The notes under the pieces were generated by a model that searched no databases, was not told the origin of the DNA, and saw only the letters and a program-made list of their open reading frames with translations. Both the position numbers and the translations under genes were made by a program. 45,836 nucleotides of DNA, taken from positions 1 to 45,836 of the forward strand of contig JAFWCM010000005.1 in the NCBI GenBank assembly GCA_017536885.1, read 5' to 3'. Within the stretch, counting starts at the first letter, position 1. Each line of letters begins with the position of its first letter. This stretch comes from Solobacterium sp. GTDB taxonomy: Bacteria; Bacillota_I; Bacilli_A; Erysipelotrichales; Erysipelotrichaceae. Of the stretch, positions 7,015 through 14,629 are shown piece by piece.

Positions 7015-7096
7015 GCGGATGTGGTGAAACTGGTAGACACGCTGATTTCAGGGGTCAGTGGGGAGACTCGTGCAGGTTCGAATCCTGTCATCCGCA
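7015..7096 (+). tRNA. tRNA-Leu (anticodon CAG)
   Basis: Cloverleaf reads directly. The acceptor stem GCGGATG (7015-7021) pairs with CATCCGC (7089-7095), with discriminator A7096. The anticodon stem CTGAT/GTCAG encloses loop TTCAGGG with anticodon CAG at 7049-7051. The long variable arm (TGGGGAGACTCG) is typical of class II tRNAs. The T arm is CAGGTTCGAATCCTG. CCA is not encoded. The 3' end is the prophage integration site; the phage sequence restores it exactly, so the gene should remain functional. Confidence 0.95.
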
Positions 7097-7098
7097 CT
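7083..7098 (+). other. attL core
   Basis: TCCTGTCATCCGCACT, identical to 45506-45521. It includes the last 14 nt of the tRNA (T stem, acceptor stem and discriminator). Flanking bases differ on both sides, so the core is 16 bp. Confidence 0.92.
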
Positions 7099-12064: not shown

Positions 12065-12472
12065 TCAACCTTTCATGTTAGATAATACCGATCCGATGTT
12101 CACTGCCTTAACATTTCTGCCAAGGGAAATTGTTTCGCCGGCACAAATGCCCGCTATGACCTCACAGAACACGCCGTCAACCGTGATGTATTCACCTACA
12201 GCATGAGCACCCTTTGCTACGGTTGTTTCACTGACCCCCGCCAATGCCCGTTCGTGTTCTTCAATCCTGACTGCCGATTCGCTGACTGCCATGAACAATT
12301 CCCAGTCTTCCTTCTTGACTGCCAGTTCATCGTATTCGTACATCGTCATTTTAGAACCGTCAGGCTGTTCACGCTCTACCTCTGTAATGTTCTTTCTGAC
12401 ATAGTTGACCGTTTTAGAAGAAGTAGTGTCAAGTTCAGCAGGTATTTCCGCTGATTCCGCTTTTTTCCACAT
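12065..12472 (-). CDS. Uncharacterised protein of the tail-fibre region
   Basis: 135 aa from ATG 12472 (a GTG at 12475 is also possible, 8 nt from GGAG). N-terminal part with NYVRKNITEVEREQPDGSKMTMYEYDELAVKKEDWELFM is typical of small proteins located behind receptor-binding genes; a C-terminal beta-rich part (GAHAVGEYITVDGVFCEVIAGICAGETISLGRNV) resembles tail-tip modules. Starts at the stop of the homing endonuclease gene. Confidence 0.65.
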   Translation of the reverse strand: MWKKAESAEIPAELDTTSSKTVNYVRKNITEVEREQPDGSKMTMYEYDELAVKKEDWELFMAVSESAVRIEEHERALAGVSETTVAKGAHAVGEYITVDGVFCEVIAGICAGETISLGRNVKAVNIGSVLSNMKG

Positions 12473-13101
12473 CACTCAAAAGTCTCCTTTCTATATTTCC
12501 AAACATAACCACCTGCGGTTTTATTTCGCCCTGTGGTATCTTTACATGCCTTACAAATTGTGCTGATTGCAATTCCTGTCTCTCGGCTTGCTTCACTAGC
12601 ACCAGAAAATGAGCGTAGGTAGTCACCATCTTTCGAGAACATATCAACAGGTTTAGCAATTCTAGGGTTTCGGATTGTGTGTGTTTCACGAAAACGTTTT
12701 TGGGAAGCACTCATTTTTTCTTTGGTTTCTTCTGAATGATGCCACCCCTTTTTTGGCCTGCGTTCCCGTCTAACACTATATATACTTGTAGGATTAACCG
12801 AACCATGAATACCGCCATCCTCAGTGTTATAACCATTAGGATAAACGGTATTTAATTTTTGGATGTATTCACACTCCTTTCTGTAGGCTTCATCGACACC
12901 GAGTATGCCATATTCAAGTATTTCGTGTGAAAATGAATCCCACCCAAATTCACTAATCGCCTTGCCAAATGCGTTATTCTTGTCATATCCACAGCCATTC
13001 AGACCCCATCGATTCACGGGATTTATGCCAGTACAGCCAACATATTTCATCCCGTTTCTTTTGTTCGTATGGCAGTAAATGCAATATCTAACGTTCGTCA
13101 T
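12472..13101 (-). CDS. GIY-YIG homing endonuclease with NUMOD motifs
   Basis: 209 aa. Residues ~6-95 are a GIY-YIG nuclease domain (CIYCHTNKRNGMKYVGCTG, then NAFGKAISEFGWDSFSHEIL and ECEYIQKLNTVYPNGYN). Residues ~117-136 match NUMOD3 (GWHHSEETKEKMSASQ), and ~150-205 match NUMOD1 (VDMFSKDGDYLRSFSGASEAS, GGYVWKYR), the DNA-binding repeats of phage homing endonucleases. The gene is visibly richer in A+T than its neighbours and has its own promoter. No intron was seen, so it is free-standing. It lies directly behind the truncated template repeat. Confidence 0.9.
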   Translation of the reverse strand: MTNVRYCIYCHTNKRNGMKYVGCTGINPVNRWGLNGCGYDKNNAFGKAISEFGWDSFSHEILEYGILGVDEAYRKECEYIQKLNTVYPNGYNTEDGGIHGSVNPTSIYSVRRERRPKKGWHHSEETKEKMSASQKRFRETHTIRNPRIAKPVDMFSKDGDYLRSFSGASEASRETGIAISTICKACKDTTGRNKTAGGYVWKYRKETFE

Positions 13102-13124: not shown

Positions 13125-13153
13125 ATTATAACACATCTTATTACTAATTGGAA
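13125..13153 (-). promoter_or_regulatory. Promoter of the homing endonuclease
   Basis: Perfect TATAAT at 13125-13130 with extended TGT, and a weak -35 (TTCCAA, 13148-13153) at 17 nt. It begins exactly at the point where homology with the tail gene stops. Confidence 0.5.
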
Positions 13154-13203
13154 CATTGCAGTAGAACGCTCCGCATTTCACGTCGTTGTTCGAGTTGCCG
13201 CCC
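13153..13203 (-). repeat. Template-repeat-like copy (DGR TR, truncated)
   Basis: 51 nt aligned without gaps to 13401-13451 (offset 248). Read on the minus strand, nine positions differ and every one is A here; five other A and all 37 non-A positions are identical. In frame it would read GGNSNNDVKCGAFYCNV, with AAC/AAT/TAC codons at the variable sites, as in template repeats of diversity-generating retroelements. Homology ends at 13153, next to the homing endonuclease promoter. Confidence 0.75.
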
Positions 13204-13333
13204 GTCCCGTATTACCCCATAAATTGTGTTTTTTAAATGATATGGCAAGGTGAGAGCGGTGACTTTTCAAAACCGCTAAGTCCGTTATGACATAGGGCAA
13301 AGACAACCTACGGTTTTCCTTGCAACCTTTCCC
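13204..13333 (-). other. Non-coding spacer between receptor gene and template repeat
   Basis: 130 nt without an open reading frame. In diversity-generating retroelements this interval can be the 5' part of the template RNA. It contains AGCGGTTTTGAAAAGTCACC, whose ACCGCT/AGCGGT arms (13254-13279) can form a 7-bp hairpin on the minus strand (AGCGGTTTTG...TCACCGCT), and AGGTTGCAAGG next to the receptor gene stop. Confidence 0.4.
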
Positions 13334-14629
13334 TTAGGCAAGTGGCTTCAAAGAGAGCGCAGACCCAATGGCCCAAGTCGCGCCCCCAAGATCATTGTTC
13401 ACACCGCAGCAGAACGCCCCGCATTTCACGCCGTTGCCCGAGGGGCCGCCCCATAGTGACCACCTGTCACCTGATGTATTCCACCACTGACCGTCGCAAT
13501 AATGGGTACTGGAAGTGCCACTTACTTCACCGGCCACAAACGCATCCTTCAGGAATACCATCTTTGAGATATACCCACTTGATGTTCCAGTTGGTGTTAC
13601 TTCGGTGTTCACATATCCCTGAGAATCCGTAGTATACGGATAAGTCATCTTGTATTTAAATACACCGCTGTTCATGTTCAGCCCTGCGGTACGTCTCCAC
13701 TGAGCGCCCCACCAGTTCTCCATGCCGAACACCTTAACTGCGTGCGTCTGATCGCTGTACCCGAAGAAAAGCCCCTTATCATTCAGAGCACCGGTAACAT
13801 AGTTTGTCAGAGCGGTTTCTGAACCTGTAATCAGGCCGTTGCCGAATACTGTTTCAGTGTCCGTAGACTTACCAATCAGGACAAGCAGAAGGTCAATCAG
13901 AATCCTATCGCAGAATACATCGGTATACCACAGCTTATCTGTTCCGGGATTGTTCAGCTCAGCGGCAATAATCTCATTCTGTCCGGTCAGTGATTTCTTG
14001 ACCGCCTGTCCGCTGAGAGAGCGCATCTTGTTGGACGCATCGCCGTTAGACCCGTTGTAAATAGCGGTATAGAAGTGGTCTACATAATTGCCCTGATTGT
14101 TTACGAAAGACCACGCCACATAATCAGGATCAACCTGTTCGTCAGCGATATACACGGTTGCACTGGAAGTATCTCCGGTGTCCGGTACGATTTTGTACCA
14201 AATCTTTTTGCCGTTTCTTCCCCATTCCATCATGGCGTTTCCGTCATAACTGGTATTGGCAACGTCAGATGCGGTTCCATCCGTCTTTTTGGTGTAGTCA
14301 TTCTCTAACAGGTAATAGTCAACAGTTCCATCGGATTTGACCATGCACGGGCGGGGCATGAAGAACGCATTTGCCCATGATCCATAGTTAAACTTGCCGT
14401 TTGTGTAGTCCATAGCGGCAGGGGTGAATCCTGAAGCATCTTCAAGGTATGTCACCTTGGATGCAGGAACACTTTCTGTTCCGTCGATGTGGAAAGCGTA
14501 AACCGTAGGCTTCTGAGCCTGTTCAGCCAGTTTTTCCACCGCCTGTGCGATGCGCTGAAGACCCATAGTCATATTCAGCCCATCTTCATGATTTATTGCC
14601 TTTTCTGATGCTAACAATGTCTGTGGCAT
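13334..14629 (-). CDS. Receptor-binding tail protein with DGR-type variable C-terminus
   Basis: 431 aa, ATG 14629 with AAGGAGG 7 nt upstream. The N-terminal ~70 residues look like a virion-attachment segment. The C-terminal half has the C-type-lectin/FGE-like landmarks of gut phage variable proteins: KVFGMENWWGAQWRRTAGL (~305), then WSLWGGPSGNGVKCGAF, GATWAIGSALSLKP at the end. Against the template copy, the variable residues would be Pro396, Gly398, Gly400, Cys407 and Gly409, corresponding to Asn, Asn, Asp, Tyr, Asn in the template. Expected role: binding the cell-surface receptor. Confidence 0.82.
   Translation of the reverse strand: MPQTLLASEKAINHEDGLNMTMGLQRIAQAVEKLAEQAQKPTVYAFHIDGTESVPASKVTYLEDASGFTPAAMDYTNGKFNYGSWANAFFMPRPCMVKSDGTVDYYLLENDYTKKTDGTASDVANTSYDGNAMMEWGRNGKKIWYKIVPDTGDTSSATVYIADEQVDPDYVAWSFVNNQGNYVDHFYTAIYNGSNGDASNKMRSLSGQAVKKSLTGQNEIIAAELNNPGTDKLWYTDVFCDRILIDLLLVLIGKSTDTETVFGNGLITGSETALTNYVTGALNDKGLFFGYSDQTHAVKVFGMENWWGAQWRRTAGLNMNSGVFKYKMTYPYTTDSQGYVNTEVTPTGTSSGYISKMVFLKDAFVAGEVSGTSSTHYCDGQWWNTSGDRWSLWGGPSGNGVKCGAFCCGVNNDLGGATWAIGSALSLKPLA
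13401..13451 (-). repeat. Variable repeat (DGR VR) in the receptor-binding gene
   Basis: The 51-nt segment that aligns to 13153-13203; it covers codons ~394-410 of the receptor-binding protein. All nine differences replace a template A by C (two) or G (seven). About 67 nt of coding sequence follow before the stop without a counterpart in the template. Confidence 0.75.

Follow-up and report, generated by a model that had tools for sequence, protein, structure and literature searches.

Probable relic of a diversity-generating retroelement in a Solobacterium prophage, with a predicted homing endonuclease gene where relatives encode the reverse transcriptase

What is a template/variable repeat pair doing in a prophage that encodes no reverse transcriptase (RT)? 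We address this question for a stretch of 45,836 nt from Solobacterium sp. (here called the window), in which genes for portal, terminase, major head, tape measure, primase and helicase mark a tailed prophage. A tRNA-Leu (CAG) gene at 7015–7097 on the plus strand adjoins this prophage and is likely its integration site. An earlier note, made from the sequence alone, had described two near-identical segments with the signature of a diversity-generating retroelement (DGR) and had left two answers standing, a dead relic or a pair served in trans. We conclude, with a probability of about 93%, that the locus is the relic of a DGR from which parts were lost, that an endonuclease gene replaced them and that retrohoming has stopped.

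We first consider the pair itself. The two segments, at 13153–13203 and 13401–13451 on the minus strand, align without gaps over 51 nt at exactly the coordinates previously given, with 42 of 51 positions identical and nine mismatches. Two of these are A>C and seven are A>G, and the A is always found in the 13153–13203 copy. This copy contains 14 A among its 51 nt, and the hypergeometric probability of placing nine of nine mismatches on A is 6.6e-7, in line with the chance of about 1 in 10^6 estimated before. An A-tolerant ungapped scan gave the window a score of 37.5, and none of 60 Markov-generated windows scored above 17. In a tail protein gene, eight of the nine mismatches occupy codon position 1 or 2, and one is synonymous. 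Read in frame, the template copy gives GGNSNNDVKCGAFYCN versus GGPSGNGVKCGAFCCG and is rich in AAY codons, a pattern that is expected of a DGR template. A near-repeat that differs at template adenines in 9/9 cases is what a DGR produces, and these observations support a genuine template/variable repeat pair without an RT.

The tail protein gene (13334–14629, minus strand) is the target gene and encodes the variable protein (VP). It matches phrog_5302 (E=9.6e-82), and an AlphaFold2 model of the product (pLDDT 92) has a C-type-lectin/formylglycine-enzyme-like fold. Among all solved structures in the PDB, the best match of the model is the Thermus aquaticus DGR variable protein TaqVP (5vf4, E=1.1e-9); Mtd of BPP-1 comes next, as a weak match. 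The target gene thus has the C-type-lectin-like variable domain of a DGR. The portion of the variable repeat (VR) that matches the template, with its nine A-specific mismatches, is 13401–13451 (minus strand); by homology, the full VR reaches to about 13350.

Tail protein relatives are encoded at 62 IMG/VR loci, at 20 loci of GTDB genomes and in four other genomes of the host genus. The earlier note had advised comparing the same locus in related prophages for an intact RT, and this comparison was decisive. At 51 related loci, a template repeat (TR) of 96–120 nt lies shortly 3' of the VP stop codon, all or nearly all of its mismatches to the VR are at TR adenines, and an RT follows. The RTs of these loci are of the DGR type, and a conserved spacer RNA lies between TR and RT. 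After the RT, many intact relatives carry a homologue of the window gene at 12065–12475 (minus strand), which forms the right flank of the former cassette and stands directly after the VP gene in one relative, L003. Comparison of these sequences shows an ancestral order of tail protein gene with VR, TR, spacer RNA, RT and downstream gene. The possibility that the 13153–13203 copy belongs to a second receptor gene is excluded, because what the relatives have at the corresponding position, beyond the VP stop, is the TR and then the RT. The same comparison bears on the reading that part of the VP gene's 3' end was duplicated in the ordinary way and acquired its A bias by chance. The two copies are short and close together, as such a duplication would have it, but the P value for the bias alone speaks against this reading and a full A-biased TR at the same position in 51 relatives already refutes it; we give it practically no credence.

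How much of the cassette does the window retain? In intact relatives, the VR starts 112–147 nt and ends 6–40 nt upstream of the VP stop, whereas the matched part of the window VR runs from 115 to 64 nt upstream. From these positions it follows that the window TR kept its 5' boundary and lost about its 3' half. The segment at 13153–13203 (minus strand) is therefore the 5' part of a 3'-truncated TR, 51 nt long compared with 96–120 nt in the relatives, and lacks the 3' end (IMH*). The 51-nt match previously reported holds, but the full repeat is longer and the truncation had been missed. Between VP stop and TR lies a leader (13204–13333, minus strand) that has TGCAAGGAAAACC in common with the leader of L004, a weak similarity by sequence comparison. 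One point counts against the relic: the TR fragment shows changes at adenines only and none elsewhere, so that either the loss is recent or the fragment is somehow conserved, two possibilities that 51 nt are too short to distinguish.

We next turned to the spacer RNA. A model (R1) was built from 34 sequences of the conserved TR–RT spacer and contains two predicted helices. R1 recovered the spacer in twelve held-out intact relatives at 30–86 bits, and a search with it for the spacer RNA in the window and the whole host assembly gave chance matches only. In an alignment of 34 loci (A1) the spacer is strongly conserved and shows a short hairpin and a longer helix whose sequence seemingly varies while its pairing is preserved. 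A DNA hairpin after the VR like that of BPP-1 was uninformative as a marker, being pronounced in L006 and L010, less so in L014, and not significant in the window or in the intact locus L004.

Searches of the window with an RT profile and PF00078 returned no match, in agreement with the earlier statement that the prophage has no RT gene. The host genome had also been named as a place to look. Profile searches of the host assembly (95% complete, 316 contigs) detected no DGR-type RT; at this completeness such an RT is very probably absent, although one could lie outside the assembly. Two other RTs were found, neither of the DGR type. One is a group II intron RT that scores 244 bits to group_II_RT_mat; it falls short of the model cut-off because a contig edge truncates the gene. 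The other is a UG26 RT (L002:672–1922, host contig C303) that matches the PADLOC UG26 model at E=4e-138; UG26-class RTs are listed among candidate defence RTs. A profile of the relatives' RTs matched DGR-like RTs in five other genomes of the host genus at E=4e-44 to 6e-157, and four of these five lie beside a relative of the window tail protein. The best host match to this profile was the UG26 gene at 8.6e-19, which in view of its PADLOC match we did not take for a DGR RT.

These results allow the two answers to be weighed. A pair that is still active and served in trans, by the RT of another host element or of a co-infecting phage, would find the VP and VR intact with the VR 3' end included, DGRs with remote VPs are known (PMC7517822), and the five genomes just mentioned show that DGR-like RTs occur in the genus. 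However, the spacer of BPP-1 serves to recruit the RT complex, and one of its adenines primes cDNA at the TR 3' junction (PMC12875486). By homology, an RT acting in trans would lack any starting point here, as both the spacer RNA and the TR 3' half are absent, and the host assembly holds no DGR RT. We regard continued activity in trans as highly improbable, and revival by an RT supplied in trans would be very unlikely. Of the two alternatives, the relic is upheld by the truncated TR, the missing spacer and the lack of a DGR RT in the host, and service in trans is not supported.

In place of the TR 3' half, the spacer and the RT, the window carries a predicted GIY-YIG homing endonuclease gene (12472–13101, minus strand). 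It matches Pfam PF01541 at 25.6 bits (cut-off 22.6), phrog_314 at E=1.7e-31 and NCBIfam grpIintron_endo at 53.1 bits, the last slightly below the cut-off of 56.05. A GIY-YIG catalytic domain is thus recognizable; matches to NUMOD3 and NUMOD1 were below their cut-offs. The start codon lies 51 nt beyond the TR fragment, and the stop codon overlaps the start of the 12065–12475 gene (TGATG), at the point where the RT ends in relatives. Comparison with the relatives shows what is left in the window, namely the tail protein, the VR and the TR's first 51 nt; the endonuclease gene has replaced the whole segment between a point inside the TR and the start codon of the downstream gene. No group I or II intron enclosing the endonuclease turned up in an Rfam search of the locus, which gave chance matches only. 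We found no close relatives of the endonuclease in viral contigs and only distant ones in the host family, and a nucleotide search of the locus against annotated phages returned no match. Free-standing GIY-YIG homing endonucleases, which are common in phages, resemble it at about 32–33% identity over nearly the full length (for example, those of phiLdb, Str-PAP-1 and VD13); in contrast to these, the window's endonuclease sits inside a DGR cassette.

The endonuclease gene may have arrived by repair of a double-strand break at or near the TR, displacing the cassette, in which case the endonuclease would be the cause of the loss. Alternatively, an earlier deletion may have opened a gap that the gene then filled. 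Mutagenic retrohoming of the window VR would have ended, with the binding face fixed in its last diversified state, and the tail protein, which binds the host, is now very probably frozen. We also considered that the endonuclease gene at this place, or the missing RT, is an error of metagenome assembly, a concern because the window is one contig of a fragmented assembly of 316. The genes that flank the endonuclease nevertheless follow the same phage order as in L003 and L004, and the overlap of its stop with the next start codon is what a real junction would be expected to show; such an error is hard to credit.

The relic reading is also consistent with the history of the family. In a tree of 67 tail proteins, calculated with the VR left out, the window VP groups with L003 (99%) within a clade that includes the intact loci L004, L005 and L006 (99%). 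L003 is the closest relative (71% identical), and its TR and RT are cleanly gone, the VP gene being followed directly by the next gene. Homology ties the window locus to the intact cassettes that relatives carry at this site, and parts of it are lost, as is to be expected of a DGR relic. A second, independent relic was found at L012:3680–4130, where an internal deletion fused the 5' part of the TR (ATCCGGGGTGGGAATTGCAACAA), still in place, to the C-terminal third of the RT. Counting strongly supported branches only, the cassette switched between present and absent at least seven times on the tree, a count that does not tell losses from gains and that judges absence from the available stretches, some of them fragmentary records. 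A further candidate for a decayed cassette, L037:4986–7835, was rejected. Its VP and RT frames are both broken, and four TAG codons are all that interrupts the RT. This suggests recoded TAG rather than decay, in a phage that probably translates TAG as an amino acid.

Among phage isolates, Butyrivibrio phage Arawn and Faecalibacterium phage FP_Epona have the VP–TR–RT arrangement, with a homologous variable tail protein and the RT gene right after it. The window shares A-specific TR/VR differences with phage DGRs of this arrangement, for which BPP-1 is the archetype and whose gene order is that of the relatives; it differs in that its TR breaks off after 51 nt and that a homing endonuclease takes the place of the lost spacer and RT. 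DGR fragments are already known. Anabaena all3226 has a remnant TR–VR pair without an RT and Anabaena sp. 90 a lone RT (PMC7517822), and crAss-like phages carry fragments of DGR cassettes (PMC12386605). As in the window, such remnants consist of TR/VR homology or cassette fragments that persist after RT loss. In the window, unlike in these, one can see where the cassette broke and which gene replaced it, and relatives in the intact, deleted and half-deleted states are available for comparison. What is unusual is the replacement by an endonuclease, and a narrow literature search found no case of a homing endonuclease replacing a DGR RT.

The locus offers a clean case of a phage that is without its targeted-mutation system and has kept the last diversified version of the protein. 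With intact, half-deleted, replaced and fully deleted relatives, the gain and loss of DGRs become testable in phage populations, and DGR finders that depend on the RT overlook loci in which a DGR has shaped the variable protein. A broader idea is that the conserved GC-rich TR/VR of phage DGRs serves homing endonucleases as their target, and that invasion recurrently ends targeted mutation and freezes the receptor-binding protein; we found a single such locus and think this unlikely. Two further loci of the family were noted. At L021:4458–7982, the variable-protein gene occurs in two tandem copies with no adjoining TR or RT. At L030:1234–6506, one phage has a single RT with the TR ahead of it and two variable-protein genes downstream, a gene order unlike that of the rest of the family.
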